A DNA stretch of 64,000 bases from Akkermansia muciniphila (GTDB taxonomy: Bacteria; Verrucomicrobiota; Verrucomicrobiia; Verrucomicrobiales; Akkermansiaceae). How positions within the stretch are numbered: the first letter of the stretch is position 1; every line of letters begins with the position of its first letter. The notes below the pieces were generated by a model that saw only the letters and a list, made by a program, of their open reading frames with translations, made no database searches and had not been told where the DNA came from. This document shows, in pieces, positions 1 through 7,868 of the stretch. The DNA lies in assembly GCF_002884975.1 (NCBI RefSeq), contig NZ_PJKB01000001.1:558001-622000 (forward strand), written 5' to 3'. A program made the translations under genes and the position numbers.

Positions 1-203
1 TGCGGCAAGGGGATGATCTCTCCCGTATCCGAGTCCCGGCTGCACAATCCCAGAGGAAAACATTCCTTGAGAACGATATTGCGCCTGAGCTGATTATCCC
101 AGGCGATGTAAGTGATGCCGAAGCCTCCCTGGCCCAGCGCCTTGAGCAACTTGTAATTGCCCAGCAGAGTTCCCGGAGGCAATGCGAAGCCAGAGACATC
201 CAT
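1..203 (-). CDS. Serine/threonine protein kinase, N-terminus only (runs off left edge)
   Basis: Only the first 67 residues are in the window. After an ATG at 201-203 the protein reads into a Hanks-type kinase N-lobe. A glycine-rich ATP loop (GQGGFG, about residues 24-29) follows a GNYKLLKAL strand, and the segment around LKECFP holds the candidate ATP-binding lysine. Such kinases phosphorylate Ser/Thr on partner proteins; no substrate can be inferred. The gene lies 4 bases downstream of the small DNA-binding protein gene on the same strand, so the two are probably co-transcribed. The rest of the kinase and any C-terminal domain are outside the window. Confidence 0.8.
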   Translation of the reverse strand, partial: MDVSGFALPPGTLLGNYKLLKALGQGGFGITYIAWDNQLRRNIVLKECFPLGLCSRDSDTGEIIPLP

Positions 204-207
204 ACAA

Positions 208-564
208 TCAGGCAAGCGGGGGATTGCCGAGCCTCGGCACTTCGTCGGCCAGGAACTCCTTCAGGGTCTTGCCCTGGGAGAAGGCTTTTTTCTCAAGAAC
301 CTTGCGGGTATCCGGATCGAGCTTTAGGGTAATCAGCGTTTCCTCTTCCACCTGCACCCGGCTCGGAAGGGTCAACGGGAGCTGCTTGATGAGTTCCCGG
401 ATGATGTGTTCCTTGGCGGCGGGAATGGGCTTTTTCGCCATCCAGTTGCGGACGGTCGCTTCCGTCACGAAACATCGTTCGGCGAGCCATGAATAATCGA
501 AGTTGTTGGCCTTGAGCCACAGCTTCACGTTCATTTTCAGCTCATCCTGATTCACTCCTGCCAT
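208..564 (-). CDS. Small helix-turn-helix-like DNA-binding protein
   Basis: About 118 residues. The N-terminal part (FDYSWLAERCFVTEATVRNW and following) has the spacing of a helix-turn-helix: the first helix is at LAERC and the recognition helix at EATVRNWM. The C-terminal half is charged, with a ribbon-helix-helix-like stretch (LITLKLDPDTRKVLEKKA). It probably regulates itself or the divergent zinc-ribbon gene, because both start in the same 140-base region. The start is uncertain: ATG at 564 is used here, a further ATG is at 534, and the frame is open to 600, where a start would overlap the likely promoter. No family name was recognised. Confidence 0.65.
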   Translation of the reverse strand: MAGVNQDELKMNVKLWLKANNFDYSWLAERCFVTEATVRNWMAKKPIPAAKEHIIRELIKQLPLTLPSRVQVEEETLITLKLDPDTRKVLEKKAFSQGKTLKEFLADEVPRLGNPPLA

Positions 565-649
565 GCTTCGGAATGTAGCATTATCGCTCTGTAATGGCAA
601 TATGGTTATATAACATTCCTATTTCTGAGATCATAATGAGATTTTTATG

Positions 650-706
650 TTGACTAAAGTCGCAAAAAAGAGGCATACAAGCAATGCAAACGAGATACAA
701 GCAATG
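650..706 (+). promoter_or_regulatory. Promoter-like region with two direct repeats before the zinc-ribbon gene
   Basis: A TTGACT box (650-655) is followed 18 bases later by CATACA (674-679), a moderate sigma-70-like pair. The 12-base word atacaagcaatg occurs twice, at 675-686 and 695-706, exactly 20 bases apart, or about two helical turns. The second copy ends in the start codon of the zinc-ribbon gene. The placement suits an operator for the neighbouring HTH-like protein, but that is inference. Confidence 0.4.
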
Positions 707-1186
707 AAAAATATCATCCAGTTCACTTGCCCCCGATGCGGAGGCCACCAACTGATGCTCGTCGAACGGGCCATGCACCGTTATGTCGTCCAGAATCTGG
801 AGGTCGACCGACAAGGCAGGCTGGCTGTCGGACTCAAGGTTCTGGTGGACGATTTATGCGGAGAGCCGCTGGGGTACCGCTGCGCGGACTGCCGTCATCC
901 GGATTGCCGTGGGAATGATTCATCGGAAGGGTCCCATCCGTGGCGCGAATCTCCACGGCATCATCGTAAACCAGCAGCAGAACGTTCGCTCCGTCGGACA
1001 ACGTGGCAGAGGACATGCCAAGAGGAATTTTATCCAAATTACTCACATGACGCATCCCACGGCGCCTTTTGGCCCCTCCGGTTTGCAGCAATTCCATATT
1101 CAACACGCTCCTGCACCCGCGCGTGTGTGCTTCCAGCTCGACAAGCACTGCAATATATGGCGACTGTTCGCCACCATTCAGAGTAA
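704..1186 (+). pseudogene. Zinc-ribbon protein, apparently fused to prophage DNA after about residue 70
   Basis: The start at 704 gives a sensible N-terminal domain with CPRCGG (residues 8-13) and a second cysteine group, YRCADCRHPDC (about 58-68), together a plausible zinc site. From about residue 70 the frame runs antisense through a phage tail gene on the minus strand and becomes a basic, low-complexity sequence typical of a shadow frame. The original C-terminus therefore seems to have been lost at a junction near 905-945, although the frame stays open to 1186. Function is unknown; a nucleic-acid or regulatory role is only suggested by the zinc ribbon. Confidence 0.5.
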
Positions 1187-1202
1187 AACGGGTTACTTCC
1201 AT
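834..1202 (-). pseudogene. T7 gp12-like tail tubular protein B (tail nozzle), N-terminal fragment
   Basis: The first 95 or so residues follow the N-terminal pattern of podoviral tail-nozzle proteins: a FTLNGGEQSP start, a GCRSVLNMELLQTGG segment and a RRRGMRHV motif, then a beta-rich stretch ending VEIRATDGTL. Full-length members are several hundred residues. Here the similarity stops at about residue 98 and the frame ends 24 residues later, inside sequence that encodes the zinc-ribbon protein on the other strand. It overlaps the stop of the upstream tail-tube gene, as in packed phage operons. It is read as a remnant truncated by a deletion and probably makes no functional protein. Confidence 0.65.
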
Positions 1203-1833
1203 GGTAAACCCCTCCTCCTTTTGAGACTCATGCCCCGTATCAAATCCAGGGGGTCCTGGTCATTGGAAGAATCCTGCACCTTATTGGCGAACGCAGCGTC
1301 CGGGAGCACTACTTTCAGAAACTCTTCCATCAATGCCTGCCGTAACTGGGGGCGCCCTGTGATGGACATGCACACGTTAATAGCCAAACGGCATGCCAGG
1401 GCATCCACAAACAACGGGTCGAATAAATCCACCTCTTTAATATCCCGGACATAGGAAATCTTCAGCATGTCCCCCGCATCTTGACCGGTGAATAAAACCC
1501 GTCCACCCAGCACAAACCGATCTGCCGGCACATCACACACCCGCAGGCAATCTTCCGGAAGGTCGTAGGCTGCCGCCATGGAGGCAGGCATCACGGCGTT
1601 ATTACTGGACCTGGGAAGTAACGCCCATCCCATAGCAAAAGACCATCTGACGCGTACCAGCACATCTTTTCGCGCCACCTCATAATTGCTCACAAGCGCC
1701 CTGGCAGACGGGAAGGGGTGAAATTCCCATTTCCTTCCGCGGGGACTCCCTTTGCCTGGGCATACTCATCGTCGCTTACGGCCCGTTCTCCAAGCCGGTC
1801 CAATGCTAAATTGCAAATTTCTACCTCCGTCAT
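1193..1833 (-). pseudogene. T7 gp11-like tail tubular protein A, broken by a frameshift
   Basis: Two minus-strand frames each carry part of one family. The first (start ATG at 1833, stop at 1690-1692) begins MTEVEICNLALDRLGE, the usual opening of gp11-like tail-tube proteins. The second, in another frame to 1193, has YEVARKDVLVRVRWSFAM and a later LACRLAINVCMSITGR segment, the usual middle and end. The frames must join within about 1705-1725, where the sequence contains ccccttcccg, so a one-base indel there is the simplest explanation. The second frame's only nearby start is a GTG at 1693. The gene lies in the decayed prophage, upstream of the truncated nozzle gene. Confidence 0.7.
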
Positions 1834-1915
1834 AGCTTCTTTCCGTGGGTGGAAATGCGGCGGGAGGAAAACCAATCAACTTCCCGCCGCCCTACTTCCT
1901 CTTTTCCTTCCCGGT

Positions 1916-2359
1916 TTATGGAAGAATGTATGCGATACAGAACACAGCCTTCTTGCCAGCAGCCGCCGTTCCGCTGACTACTGTGGCGGTCATCCAGCAC
2001 GGTTCCTCCGTCGGCACAGGATCCATGGCATCCGTGCCCCCCGTAAAACCGTTGGTCGTTTTAGCCGTGGAGATGGGCAGGGAACTGGCGTAGCGGGAAG
2101 AATCCCGTCCATCTCCGACTTTCACAGTAAGGCCGGTTGCCTCGGAAGTCACCGAACACAGATTGGGGAGGACCACAACATGTTTGGGAAGACGCACCAA
2201 ATTCATCACGTCACCGGTTACTTCGGCCCCGGTCAAAGTCACTACGGCACGGGCCATCACCACGTTGCCGCTTACACTCTGGCCGGATGCCGTCAGCGGG
2301 CCCGTTCCGTTAATGATCTGGTTCTGCTTACCTGCAATGTCGGAAAAAAATGTAGTCAT
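1916..2359 (-). CDS. Small prophage virion-type protein, hypothetical
   Basis: 147 residues, ATG at 2359, 18 bases after the capsid gene stop. The sequence is rich in Thr, Val, Gly and Ala with alternating beta-type segments (VSGNVVMARAVVTLTGAEVTGDV, in part) and no membrane segment or catalytic motif. Position directly after the major capsid gene, together with this composition, is typical of head decoration or head-closure proteins, but no family was recognised. The frame is intact. Confidence 0.6.
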   Translation of the reverse strand: MTTFFSDIAGKQNQIINGTGPLTASGQSVSGNVVMARAVVTLTGAEVTGDVMNLVRLPKHVVVLPNLCSVTSEATGLTVKVGDGRDSSRYASSLPISTAKTTNGFTGGTDAMDPVPTEEPCWMTATVVSGTAAAGKKAVFCIAYILP

Positions 2360-2377
2360 TGTACTTGATTCCCTTCC

Positions 2378-3301
2378 TTAGTTTGCAGATTCATCACACA
2401 GGATTTTCACGAAGCCTTCTTCCTGAAGGCGGGTGGCCCCACAGGCGAACTTGGCGCGGATTTGAAGGGCTTCCTCCATGTCGTCGCGAACGGAAAGCTT
2501 CACCTTGAAATCTTCCCAAAGTCCGAATTTCGCCTTGCTCTTCACCCAGGCCAGGCAGGAGCGCGTCTTTCCGTCCTCATCCAAAGGCAGGCGCTGGGTG
2601 CGAATGAATTTGAAGCCAAGGAGGGTATCAATCTCCCCATTCACCAATGCCTTCACATTGACGAAATCAGCGGAAGTTGCCTCCGTCGTGCGCAGCAGGC
2701 TCATGATCTGGGAACTGGTCACAGCAATCACTAGCTGATCGCCGTAATTTTCGGAATCTTGACCCCACGCCTCTTCCTCCTGGAACCGTTGAAGGGCTAC
2801 ACGCAGCTTGTCGATTGTCAGGTTGGACGCTTTGGCGGAGCCTGTCTCTACGTAATTGGCTGCCACAATCTGATCAGAAGGAAGCTCTACTGCCTTCATA
2901 CCGTCTTCACCGATGTAATTCGTGCCCAGGAAGCCGGAAATCATTACGTCGTCCATGCGGCGCCCGGCGGCGGCCCGGAGACCTTCGATTGTCTTGCTGA
3001 CGGGAACGTCGATATTGCCGAGTTGCGTGCCGTCAAATTCATCATAGCCGATGGCCTTGGTGAAAATACGCGGACGCATGGAGCGGCAGTCTGTCGGCGC
3101 CTCATCGAGGACAGTCTTGCCAAGACGGGACGTCTTTTCATCGAAGTCCAGCAAGCCGAACTGGTCCATGAAAACAACCTTGCCGGAAAGTCCTGTATCC
3201 GTGCTCGTGTAATTTCGGAAACGGGCGATCGTCTGTTGAAGCAGCGTGCCCCACTTATTTGTGTACTTGACCTGATATTGGTCTGGAATTGTCATTGCCA
3301 T
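2378..3301 (-). CDS. Phage major capsid protein
   Basis: 307 residues, the normal size for a HK97-fold coat protein of podovirus or N4 type. Supporting features are the N-terminal segment TIPDQYQVKYTNKW and a RRMDDVMISGFLGTNYIGEDG region around residue 120. There is also a long central helix followed by QLVIAVTSSQIMSLLRTTEA, and a C-terminal CLAWVKSKAKFGLWEDFKV domain, all typical of phage capsid proteins found next to T7-like tail genes. ATG at 3301 is used; a second ATG at 3295 is equally possible. No protease, scaffold, portal or terminase gene precedes it. Instead the integrase gene ends 67 bases upstream, which suggests deletion of the early head genes. Confidence 0.75.
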   Translation of the reverse strand: MAMTIPDQYQVKYTNKWGTLLQQTIARFRNYTSTDTGLSGKVVFMDQFGLLDFDEKTSRLGKTVLDEAPTDCRSMRPRIFTKAIGYDEFDGTQLGNIDVPVSKTIEGLRAAAGRRMDDVMISGFLGTNYIGEDGMKAVELPSDQIVAANYVETGSAKASNLTIDKLRVALQRFQEEEAWGQDSENYGDQLVIAVTSSQIMSLLRTTEATSADFVNVKALVNGEIDTLLGFKFIRTQRLPLDEDGKTRSCLAWVKSKAKFGLWEDFKVKLSVRDDMEEALQIRAKFACGATRLQEEGFVKILCDESAN

Positions 3302-3368
3302 GCCTCAACCATGGCACACCGGCATCAAAATAAATACCGCTCTAAATCAAGTAATTCAGAAATGACTG

Positions 3369-4493
3369 TCAGAACTTGAGTTTTGAAGCTTGTTCCTTGC
3401 TGTGCTCGTCACGGAGATGTCCGTATACCCGCATGGCAAGGGCGCCTCCGTCCTGGTGCCCCAGCCACTTTGCCACAGTCGGAATATCCACCCCTTGCTC
3501 GATGCACGTTGTGGCGAAGAAGTGGCGAAGATCATGCACCCTCATGTGTGGTAATCCAAGCCGGGTGCAGGCATTTGTCAGTGCTTTCCGGGGATTATCG
3601 AGTAATAATACAGAATCCGTCGCTGCATAATAACCACGTAGCTTCTTCATCCCTTCAATCACGCCCTGTAATGCCGGATTAATATAAAGCATCCTTGGCT
3701 TCACTGCGTGCTTGATGGCCGGCACCTTCACAACATTGGGGCCAATGTCGCCCCATGTAAGGCGTCTGGCCTCTTCAATCCTCAAGCCTGAATATGCCAA
3801 AAATTCCACCATGTCAGCAGCAGGAGACTCCAACGCCTTCTTGCCTGTGTGGCCCCGTAATACGGGAGCTCTCCGAATCTCTTGAACTATCCGGGCAAAA
3901 TCATCTTTACCAGGAATGAAAAAATCAGTGGGCTTTACCCTCATCAGCTCCAACTTGGAGGTAGGGTCTTCCTTGACGGAACCAGACTCAATCAGGATGG
4001 AAAATATCTTCCGTATAGCACAAAGTGTTCCATTAGCTGTTCTTGGCGTGTTATTTTTTGTTTTTGCCGCCCACCACAACCGACACATGTGAGGCGTAAT
4101 GGATATTGCCGGTACGTCAGATGCAACCAACTCCTTAGCATGTCTGGCAAATAAGAGAATGGATTGTAATGCCAGAGGCTTTAAATTGGGCCGCATCTTC
4201 TGACGGGCTATGTAGGTATCCACTGCTACATACCAAGAGACATTCCCAATGGCTGGAGTATCGGCCCCCATCTCCTGCAAAAAAGCCGCCATTTTGGCAA
4301 TGGCCTCGGTCAGTTCCTTTGTCTTGAGAGATCGTCTCACTGTTTTTCGGCCTCCCTGCCTGGAATCCATGCGGGCATAGTAAATACCGGAATTCTTTTC
4401 CCGGTACAGATGGGCGTAATCAGTCGGCTCGAAATACTGGCGCATGTCCATCTCTTGCCATTCCTGCGGCCCCAACACAACATTTTTCCACAT
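3369..4493 (-). CDS. int: Tyrosine recombinase (phage integrase)
   Basis: 374 residues. An N-terminal arm-type region is followed by a SAM-like core-binding domain (about 80-175) and the catalytic domain. All catalytic residues are visible: R238 in YSGLRIEEARRL, K261, H320 and R323 in HDLRH, H346 in GHQDGG and the nucleophile Y357 in RVYGHL. It therefore looks active and would catalyse site-specific integration and excision. The gene starts about 85 bases from the 3' end of tRNA-Val, the classical layout for an element integrated in a tRNA gene. A start at residue 15 or 17 is also possible. Confidence 0.92.
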   Translation of the reverse strand: MWKNVVLGPQEWQEMDMRQYFEPTDYAHLYREKNSGIYYARMDSRQGGRKTVRRSLKTKELTEAIAKMAAFLQEMGADTPAIGNVSWYVAVDTYIARQKMRPNLKPLALQSILLFARHAKELVASDVPAISITPHMCRLWWAAKTKNNTPRTANGTLCAIRKIFSILIESGSVKEDPTSKLELMRVKPTDFFIPGKDDFARIVQEIRRAPVLRGHTGKKALESPAADMVEFLAYSGLRIEEARRLTWGDIGPNVVKVPAIKHAVKPRMLYINPALQGVIEGMKKLRGYYAATDSVLLLDNPRKALTNACTRLGLPHMRVHDLRHFFATTCIEQGVDIPTVAKWLGHQDGGALAMRVYGHLRDEHSKEQASKLKF

Positions 4494-4578: not shown

Positions 4579-4653
4579 TGGTACGCGGTACTGGTTTCGA
4601 ACCAGTGACCCCATGCGTGTGAAGCATGTGCTCTACCACTGAGCTAACCGCGC
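4579..4653 (-). tRNA. tRNA-Val (anticodon CAC)
   Basis: On the minus strand the 75-base sequence folds as a cloverleaf. The acceptor stem is gcgcggt with accgcgt (one terminal G-U), the D arm is tagctcagtggtagagca, and the anticodon stem is catgc/gcatg around loop ttcacac. The T arm is actgg-ttcgaaa-ccagt. The loop gives anticodon CAC, which reads valine GUG. The 3' ACCA end is encoded. A strong promoter lies upstream and a terminator downstream. Its 3' end borders the integrase region, so it is the likely integration site of the prophage. Confidence 0.95.
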
Positions 4654-5972: not shown

Positions 5973-6473
5973 ACGGTACCTTTAGAGGGAGGCTGGTTTT
6001 TATTTTCTGTACTCTTTCGCGCTCCGGAAGTTTCAGTTTTTAAGCCGTTCCTGGATTATTCGAAAGGGGAAAAGTCATTTTGGGCCAAGCTGGGATGGCT
6101 GGGATACGCAAAATACGCTCCGTACAGTTTTTGGAGGGTGGTTTTTAAGATGGCCGGTAAGTTTTGTTCCGGCGCCTGGCGTATCTATTGATCGCTTTCA
6201 AGAGAGGGATCGACCATATCTTTTTTCTCCCAAGCCGATGCGAGGTTGAATGCGGCTTAATGGCAGTTTTAAATTAACTAATCTTTGTTTCTTCATAAAT
6301 ATTTTACATTTTAAAATGATAATTGTTTGTTTTTGTATGAGGATAATGTAATGTGAATAATGTAAAAACCTCCATGGTTTTTCATATCGCATGGCGGTTG
6401 TTCGGTACCATTGTCCGTCAATGCAATGCCATGATCAAGCCATTGAATATAAAAATAATAGAAATAACATATC
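5973..6473 (+). other. Intergenic region before the glycine-block gene
   Basis: About 500 bases without a convincing gene or terminator hairpin. The second half (about 6230-6470) is clearly AT-rich. It contains the direct repeat ataatgtaa at 6343-6351 and 6357-6365, which could belong to the control region of the downstream gene. No clear Shine-Dalgarno sequence precedes the ATG at 6474. Confidence 0.5.
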
Positions 6474-7811
6474 ATGAATAAAGACCAGCATGAAGTACAA
6501 ATGCAGGCCATTTTGGGCCAATCAAAATCCGCCCGCAGTGAGTTCTGGAAATCCCTGGATTTCCATGAACCGTCAAAGGGTTCCCTGAGGACAGACACGA
6601 AGAAGGGAGAATTCCTTCTTTCGCCGGATTCCTCGCTTAATAATGGTCCCCCGCCCGTGATTTGTGAAATTGACAGCATTCAGAAACTGAAAAAGTTGAC
6701 AGGCTGCGACGACAGTTTATTTGATTTGGGAGTTTTCTCTTCTGAAGAACTGGAATTCCCCGTATGGGATTCCACTTATGATCATACGGTGTGGAAGGAT
6801 TTACCCGCAAGGTGGAAAGCCATTTTGTGCCGTGTCTGCCAAGCCTATATTTACGGAGATTCTCGGAAGGTGGCAGCCTATGAGGATGTACTTAACCGCA
6901 AGTATTTTCCCATGAAAATTGCTTGTTTTACAGGAGAAAGTATTGTGGTGACCAAGGACCATCCCCTTATCATTGATCCAGGTTCCAGTCCTTATCCGGT
7001 TGTGCTTCATTACGACAGTATTACTCTTGAGGAAGGGGCAAAGATCATCTCCAAGAAGGGAGCCCTGGTTCATTTGGAATCAGATTATCTGCGGCAGGAA
7101 GGACGTCCCGACATGAAAGGTTCCTTTGTATTTACAGGAGAGGGTGGCGGAGACGGAGGAGATGGCGGAGACGGGGGAGACGGTGCCCAGGGGGCAAAAG
7201 GAGCTGATGGAGGAAGTAAGTCGGCAGGGGAAAAAGGAAGTAACGGTACGGCAGGACATGATGGAGGAAATGGCAGTAACGGCATTGCCGGTTCTAATCC
7301 GACTCCTGTTTCCATGTCGGTGGCAACCATCAAAGGGGATGTCCTGGTAGCCAGTTATGGAGGTAAGGGAGGCAACGGAGGAGATGGTGGTGAAGGAGGC
7401 CAAGGAGGCAAAGGTGGTACAGGAGGAAAGGATGGAGGGGATGGCGCAGGCGAAGGGGGAAACGGCGGTAACGGAGGGAAAGGAGGAAAAGGTGGCAAAG
7501 GAGCCGCCGGGGGCTCCGGAGCGAATGTTACCATCCATTATTGGACCCTTGACGGTTCTGTACAGTTGATTCAGTCTCCTGATCCCCATGAAGGACTTGG
7601 AGGGAACGGCGGCAGTGGAGGCAAAGGTGGAAAAGGTGGTGTGGGAGGAGACGGTGGCAGCAGTTCTGTGGCAGGAGGAACCGGAGGAACACCGGGAGCC
7701 TCAGGGGAGGGAGGGACAGCCGGGAATCATGGAGCCATGGGGAAAGTGATTCTTGTCCATGACGAGGAAAACCGTGTTACCGTACTGGTTCCTGCCGACA
7801 GGAATAGTTAA
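6474..7811 (+). CDS. Protein with three polyglycine-type blocks between beta-strand segments
   Basis: 445 residues with no signal peptide or membrane helix. Residues 1-150 are an unrecognised hydrophilic domain. About 150-220 is beta-rich, with regularly spaced strands (IVVTKDHPLII, VVLHYDSITLEEG, ALVHLES) that look like rungs of a right-handed beta-helix. Then come three glycine-rich blocks of about 50 residues (about 221-277, 296-352, 371-422) built from GGX/GX units such as GGNGG, GGKGG and GGDGG. They are separated by short beta segments of about 20 residues and closed by a C-terminal strand pair (KVILVHDEENRVTVLV). The pattern fits polyglycine-II helices packed in loops of a beta-solenoid. 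It could act as a cytoplasmic scaffold, or be secreted by a non-Sec route; function is unknown. A strong terminator follows. Confidence 0.8.
   Translation: MNKDQHEVQMQAILGQSKSARSEFWKSLDFHEPSKGSLRTDTKKGEFLLSPDSSLNNGPPPVICEIDSIQKLKKLTGCDDSLFDLGVFSSEELEFPVWDSTYDHTVWKDLPARWKAILCRVCQAYIYGDSRKVAAYEDVLNRKYFPMKIACFTGESIVVTKDHPLIIDPGSSPYPVVLHYDSITLEEGAKIISKKGALVHLESDYLRQEGRPDMKGSFVFTGEGGGDGGDGGDGGDGAQGAKGADGGSKSAGEKGSNGTAGHDGGNGSNGIAGSNPTPVSMSVATIKGDVLVASYGGKGGNGGDGGEGGQGGKGGTGGKDGGDGAGEGGNGGNGGKGGKGGKGAAGGSGANVTIHYWTLDGSVQLIQSPDPHEGLGGNGGSGGKGGKGGVGGDGGSSSVAGGTGGTPGASGEGGTAGNHGAMGKVILVHDEENRVTVLVPADRNS
7135..7740 (+). repeat. Three GGN-repeat tracts within the glycine-block gene
   Basis: Purine-rich tracts at about 7135-7305, 7360-7530 and 7585-7740 made of imperfect 3- to 9-base units of the form ggaggnaan or ggcggnaan. 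They encode GGX triplets. Such tracts can expand or contract by slippage in multiples of three while keeping the frame. Confidence 0.7.
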
Positions 7812-7821
7812 GAAATATCCC

Positions 7822-7868
7822 AACCGGGAGTCCGCTGCGGTTGCCGACCAGGTGGACTCCCGGTTTTT
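7822..7868 (+). terminator. Terminator after the glycine-block gene
   Basis: A perfect 12-bp stem (7822-7833 with 7854-7865) is followed by a T-run at 7864-7868. The ABC importer operon converges from the other side, but no T-run serves the minus strand. Confidence 0.85.

Follow-up and report, generated by a model that had tools for sequence, protein, structure and literature searches.

A glycine-rich protein of Akkermansia muciniphila, predicted to carry three polyglycine-II hairpins with variable tips on a beta-solenoid, and its relatives in Photorhabdus and Xenorhabdus

We analysed a gene in a 64,000-nucleotide stretch of the Akkermansia muciniphila genome (contig NZ_PJKB01000001.1, positions 558,001 to 622,000; hereafter the window). 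With a probability that we put at about one in two, it encodes a rigid display protein in which a beta-solenoid carries three stacked polyglycine-II (PGII) hairpins, a slab that shows variable tips, most likely for binding. The architecture taken by itself is highly probable; binding by the tips is a more tentative proposal, drawn by analogy. The existence of a family, the architecture, a pattern of six glycine runs, the variability of the tips and a foreign origin of the window copy are all supported by the analyses described here.

Three glycine-rich blocks of about 50 residues, described from the sequence in an earlier note, were confirmed within a few residues of the limits first proposed (Table 1). 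They are 52, 54 and 50 residues long, and the non-glycine segments between them, put by the note at about 20 residues, measured 20–24. Glycines spaced three residues apart were more frequent than in composition-matched shuffles (18 versus 9.3, 28 versus 19.7 and 20 versus 11.7 in blocks 1–3), and none of 5000 shuffles per block equalled the observed count. The note had treated each block as a single GGX/GX unit and overlooked a phase break in the middle, which splits every block into two period-3 runs of 22–29 residues. The six runs cover residues 222–246, 252–273, 296–324, 326–349, 374–395 and 402–423. A run, a break and a second run in every block is what one expects of a hairpin whose tip lies mid-block. 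Conservation at the protein level across phyla, together with a strong intrinsic terminator, indicates that this is a real gene; the terminator folds with −35.1 kcal/mol (z −4.9), a value reached by 0 of 200 shuffles.

Table 1. Parts of the glycine-rich gene and its flanks, in window coordinates.
Feature	Position	Strand	Basis
Whole gene, three-hairpin Gly-rich beta-solenoid protein	6474..7811	+	ORF, 445 aa; relatives 36–41% identity, same architecture
N-terminal domain, residues 1–145	6474..6908	+	Family conservation; motif AYIYGxSxxVxxYEDxLNxKxFPMK near domain end
Beta-solenoid opening rungs, residues 147–221	6912..7136	+	Model strands 147–159, 176–185, 190–194, 197–206, 215–221
Gly block 1, predicted PGII hairpin 1, residues 222–273	7137..7292	+	pLDDT 82–95; Gly phase, 54 proteins
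Hairpin 1 tip, residues 247–254	7212..7235	+	Family alignment
Beta rung between blocks 1 and 2, residues 279–295	7308..7358	+	Strand in AF2 model
Gly block 2, predicted PGII hairpin 2 (central), residues 296–349	7359..7520	+	pLDDT 83–96 over 301–350; Gly phase
Hairpin 2 tip, residues 319–327	7428..7454	+	Family alignment; relatives' inserts up to 17 residues
Beta rung between blocks 2 and 3, residues 350–373	7521..7592	+	Strand 352–365 in model
Gly block 3, predicted PGII hairpin 3, residues 374–423	7593..7742	+	pLDDT 86–95 over 381–420; Gly phase
Hairpin 3 tip, residues 396–401	7659..7676	+	Family alignment; most variable part, 2–21 residues
C-terminal beta rung, residues 424–445	7743..7808	+	Strands 425–429 and 434–438 in model
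Intrinsic terminator, 12-bp arms AACCGGGAGTCC / GGACTCCCGGTT then T run	7822..7867	+	Sequence and fold
AT-rich leader	6030..6473	+	GC 0.38 versus 0.58 for window

The window protein had no match in Pfam, NCBIfam, PHROGs or PDB sequences; a known secreted repeat family, which the note had said would speak against its reading, was not found in the Pfam and NCBIfam searches. The first relative was a Xenorhabdus bovienii protein detected by tblastn in plasmid records (39.6% identity, E 3e-17). The plasmid search, of 72,556 records, and a search of 50,697 phage records gave no further relatives, and scans of viral contigs returned none. A genome scan with the window protein alone also gave no relative, but a scan with the window and X. 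bovienii proteins as a pair recovered 22 loci, all in Photorhabdus and Xenorhabdus. Since the pair scan was built on two short peptide patterns, it may miss distant relatives elsewhere. A Photobacterium match was rejected as a family member, being a thiolase.

Besides the window's own, we read 56 family ORFs from these loci (X. bovienii plasmid record counted); leaving out three truncated, frameshifted or partial ORFs and including the window protein gave the set of 54 proteins used below. A Photorhabdus khanii copy (L009:9845-10969) is frameshifted inside Gly block 2, either a pseudogene or a sequencing error. The six Photorhabdus genomes searched hold two to seven copies each and two Xenorhabdus genomes hold one each. 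The relatives are 413–464 aa long and are annotated as 'hypothetical protein' (e.g. XBW1_RS22190, WP_046338261.1), and we found no literature on these genes in either genus. The order of parts is identical in all: N-terminal domain, solenoid opening and then three Gly blocks, each followed by a beta segment. The N-terminal domain, solenoid, six Gly runs and three tips are common to the relatives and the window protein, which also has the N-terminal motif of Table 1, whose columns are invariant across the family. The statement that the N-terminal 150 residues match nothing therefore holds for Pfam, NCBIfam, PHROGs and the PDB and fails for genomes, where the Photorhabdus/Xenorhabdus family has the domain.

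The relatives carry a 10-residue segment, MEPHHPLPEP, that sets them apart from the window protein, and the window protein has an extra segment around residues 95–115. Tip 1 of the relatives contains a 5-residue insert and a conserved cysteine, both missing in the window protein. In the 54-protein alignment, cysteines number about 0.98 (tip 1) and 0.94 (tip 2) per protein, and the window tips have none; the tip cysteine in blocks 1 and 2 is a common rather than a defining family feature. Where present, the cysteines of tips 1 and 2 may form a disulfide or a metal site between stacked hairpins.

We then compared how runs and tips have evolved in the 54 proteins. Each run segment occurs in only one or two distinct lengths (19; 19; 21/24; 22; 19/20; 23/24), whereas tip lengths vary (5–10; 8–10 and a junction of up to 17 gap columns; 2–21). 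Most insertions and deletions fall at the three mid-block tips, which also have the highest entropy. Without alignment, six period-3 segments were counted in 46 of the 54 proteins and five in the other 8, compared with 0.6 after shuffling. The number of glycines per turn is likewise fixed run by run along the family, as 1,1,2,2,2,1. Both legs of hairpin 1 have one invariant glycine per turn, both legs of hairpin 2 have two (glycine by phase 1.00/1.00/0.04 and 0.84/0.96/0.00), and hairpin 3 has two in leg a and one in leg b, so that glycine is densest in the middle block. This rule is what a 2x3 slab would lead one to expect if two faces of its middle hairpin, but fewer faces of the outer hairpins, are buried. 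Run lengths, tip indels and the glycine rule thus lend the predicted fold support that is independent of structural models. Among 116 related pairs, dN/dS was highest at the tips (0.65) and ranged from 0.11 to 0.30 elsewhere, with the lowest value in the central hairpin (0.11) and 0.15 in the N-terminus. Relaxed constraint fits the tip value as well as selection for binding does.

A collagen-like triple helix is a very improbable reading of the same repeats. Collagen was the only Pfam model matched by family members, weakly and in 13 of 32 relatives (best E 6e-4), but the window protein lacks this match and proline occupies 0–7% of non-Gly positions. Furthermore, an in-register trimer would sit badly with blocks that each change phase between two runs, and with a GGX pattern in the central one.

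The full-chain structure prediction suggested in the note gave confident Gly blocks (pLDDT 82–98) and none of the low confidence that would mark disorder, the other outcome that the note had named as speaking against its reading. The AF2 model of the window protein was built from 21 relatives, with an alignment that did not include the row from the plasmid collection. Its mean pLDDT is only 68.8 because the N-terminal 145 residues pull the average down (31–77 in that domain); the Gly blocks reach 82–96 per ten residues, with dips at 241–250, 321–330 and 391–400, the predicted tips. Neither helix nor strand was assigned in the blocks. A model of a Photorhabdus relative from 32 sequences was better, also in the N-terminal domain (mean pLDDT 85.3, pTM 0.72, Gly blocks 87–98). 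In both models the PGII geometry and the stacking of hairpins are predictions, and AF2 may favour PGII bundles for whatever GGX repeat it is given. The composition is of low complexity, and a Gly region that is disordered and has no fixed structure would be compatible with this and with models that are predictions only. We consider disorder improbable: besides the high pLDDT across the blocks, in proteins that have diverged by about 60% and differ at their tips, a disordered region would not keep run length, phase and glycines per turn unchanged.

In Foldseek searches against the PDB, the top match of both models was the springtail antifreeze protein with nine PPII helices (7JJV; E 1.2e-4 and 1.2e-5), followed by the snow-flea antifreeze protein, then by the beta-helices of SufB/D and Cthe_2159 and, weakly, by gp38 of phages PP01 and S16 (E 3–6, insignificant). 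TM-scores were low (0.05–0.28) and rmsd high, so the matches reflect local fold type and not whole-chain likeness; common glycine composition also feeds the score. In BFVD, a DUF7932 protein of Terrestrivirus (A0A3G4ZNF8) matched with probability 1.00 and E 8.9e-6 over 332 columns at 20% identity. The Pfam search of family members gave no DUF7932 match, and we found no paper on DUF7932.

Although 7JJV, 3BOG and 2PNE, the springtail and snow-flea proteins, are the best PGII/PPII fold matches, an ice-binding function is the least probable of the readings we weighed. The PGII/PPII bundle accounts for the match. In the central hairpin, Asn and Asp fill most of the outward positions across the family instead of making a flat small-hydrophobic or Thr face, and the outward residues do not look like those of an ice-binding protein. 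The antifreeze proteins are short, secreted, of animal origin and without a beta-solenoid, and the hosts here are gut or insect bacteria that are not known to be exposed to freezing.

Another likeness in build is to the gp38 adhesin of T-even phages (S16, PDB 6F45; PP01, 9V85), in which PGII helices grow from extended beta-helix turns and hypervariable distal loops bind the receptor (PMC6851490, PMC12892980). The same build is predicted here, and variable distal loops are also a trait of this family, as judged from entropy, indels and dN/dS at the tips. However, gp38 has ten short helices and the window protein three long hairpins with legs of 22–29 residues. Whereas gp38 docks on the gp37 tail fibre, the window gene lies outside any tail-fibre locus, between alr and an ABC-transporter gene, and we detected no sequence kinship to gp38 or phage adhesins among PHROGs, phage records and viral contigs. 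Given this locus and lack of kinship, the best reading is that the protein would work like gp38 without being a member of its family. The proposal of a PGII slab on a beta-solenoid thus stands on two AF2 models, on fold matches and on the evolution of run lengths, tips and glycines per turn, with the geometry itself predicted. The suggestion of a 'new type' was too strong, since PGII helices that extend from the turns of a beta-helix are already known in gp38 (PMC6851490).

Mycobacterial PE_PGRS 'sails' are a further comparison, for which a PGII sandwich has been predicted from Gly-rich triplets. In the available text of that account (PMC9436101) their helices comprise 3–4 triplets, compared with 7–9 here, and a beta-solenoid carrier such as we predict is not described. 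PE_PGRS proteins begin with a PE domain; Pfam found none at the N-terminus of the window protein, and identity with PE_PGRS is disfavoured.

We next considered the surroundings of the family genes. In Xenorhabdus and Photorhabdus, one copy lies in an operon with genes for a 1482-aa protein, a 217-aa Gly-rich protein, an 823-aa pentapeptide-repeat protein and a 1712-aa type I PKS. Every copy of the 1482-aa protein ends in the family's solenoid opening (profile E down to 1e-7, calculated on a small set); it has no Pfam or NCBIfam match at threshold. Its gene (L003:3410-7858 and equivalents) overlaps the family gene by 8 nt, and the protein has hydrophobic stretches at 500–518 and 561–579. The 217–223-aa Gly-rich protein (L003:9126-9779 and equivalents) has the three-hairpin run pattern without the N-terminal domain, with five segments over threshold. 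The note had suggested a search with residues 1–150 to tell whether other C-termini exist in the family. All relatives found share one type of C-terminus, but the 217-aa partner consists of the C-terminal fold by itself, and the solenoid opening recurs at the end of the 1482-aa partner. Further copies stand in tandem arrays, and directly upstream of these lies an aminochorismate-type natural-product operon (L005:326-8779; also L010, L011, L016, L026) with genes for an FAD oxidoreductase, a methyltransferase, a BioF-like enzyme, PabAB, a prephenate-dehydrogenase-like protein and an MFS pump. We dropped its identification as pcfABCDEF because family searches gave these protein families (DAO for the oxidoreductase) and the ORF list shows no adjacent LuxR gene.

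This context bears on a reading in which the same PGII-on-solenoid fold is a passive structural or assembly part, such as a scaffold, spacer or coat, stacking end to end with the 1482-aa and 217-aa partners in Photorhabdus and Xenorhabdus. The solenoid module at the C-terminus of all 1482-aa partners, the 8-nt gene overlap and the Gly-run pattern, mostly repeated in the 217-aa partner, would all fit. So would the apparent lack of an export signal in the window protein: as the note had stated, no signal peptide is seen, and the top 11-residue Kyte-Doolittle mean in the first 45 residues is 0.09. We nevertheless regard this reading as less likely, though it is the main alternative. The Photorhabdus/Xenorhabdus copies, up to seven per genome, lie beside natural-product genes and large partners, whereas the window copy is single. 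The window genome gave no match to the 1482-aa partner, in a search run with a positive control, and holds only one Gly-rich copy, which suggests that the window protein works alone there. Moreover, evolution is fastest at the tips, which would sooner point to binding or display than to the label 'scaffold' used in the note. The display reading has its own difficulty: the window protein lacks a signal peptide and its genome a partner gene, so that exposure is putative, and transport to the cell surface or outside, by an unspecified route, is something we infer.

Across the genomes searched (76 from the genus, 289 from the phylum), the gene occurred once in each set, in the window's own genome. 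Its GC3 is 0.44, compared with 0.70–0.85 for ten other measured window genes. Two close relatives, 89% and 86% identical along the alr stretch, have only about 0.4 kb between alr and the ABC-transporter gene; nothing in this interval matches the gene, and the leader did not align with it. Lone occurrence, low GC3 and leader GC, and the empty site in both relatives are most simply explained if the gene was acquired horizontally. The known Photorhabdus/Xenorhabdus lineage is not the direct donor, given 36–41% identity to all its members and an end branch near 5 for the window protein. Elsewhere in the window, prophage genes for a tail protein (1193–1693), a major head protein (2378–3301) and a tyrosine integrase (3369–4493), all on the minus strand, abut tRNA-Val(cac) at 4579–4653; the integrase is missing upstream of alr in the two close relatives. 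These genes, at 1–4493, are separated from the window gene by the tRNA and alr.

For the display protein we propose that the N-terminal domain would lead into the beta-solenoid, where one turn at each of three successive rungs would extend as a hairpin made up of a pair of PGII helices. At 3.1 Å per residue, helices of about 22–29 residues would measure roughly 70–90 Å. Stacked, the three hairpins would give a 2x3 slab in which the middle hairpin (GGX) has two buried sides and the outer hairpins (GXY) have fewer; the three variable tips would sit at the far end of the slab. Once the protein had reached the cell surface or the outside, these tips may bind a ligand or receptor, in analogy to gp38.

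To our knowledge, few PGII sandwiches have been solved, with only a small number besides the animal antifreeze proteins and T-even gp38. It is possible, although we rate it below even odds by some way, that these proteins form a family of recognition proteins, bacterial and not of phages, that has not been described before and is built on PGII hairpins, with legs exceeding in length those reported for gp38 and PE_PGRS. Such a family would have diversified as tandem arrays in insect pathogens, with up to seven copies and fastest-changing tips, and would have reached a gut bacterium by horizontal transfer, a lone copy functioning there in the absence of the large partners. As a bacterial chromosomal family with predicted PGII legs about twice the sail length given in that PE_PGRS account, a rule visible by eye (a single glycine per turn outside, two in the centre) and tips with the variability of binding loops, it would be a test bed for polyglycine folding and for its use in bacterial recognition. 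It also accounts for a string of 'hypothetical protein' genes, several kilobases in all, in Photorhabdus and Xenorhabdus.
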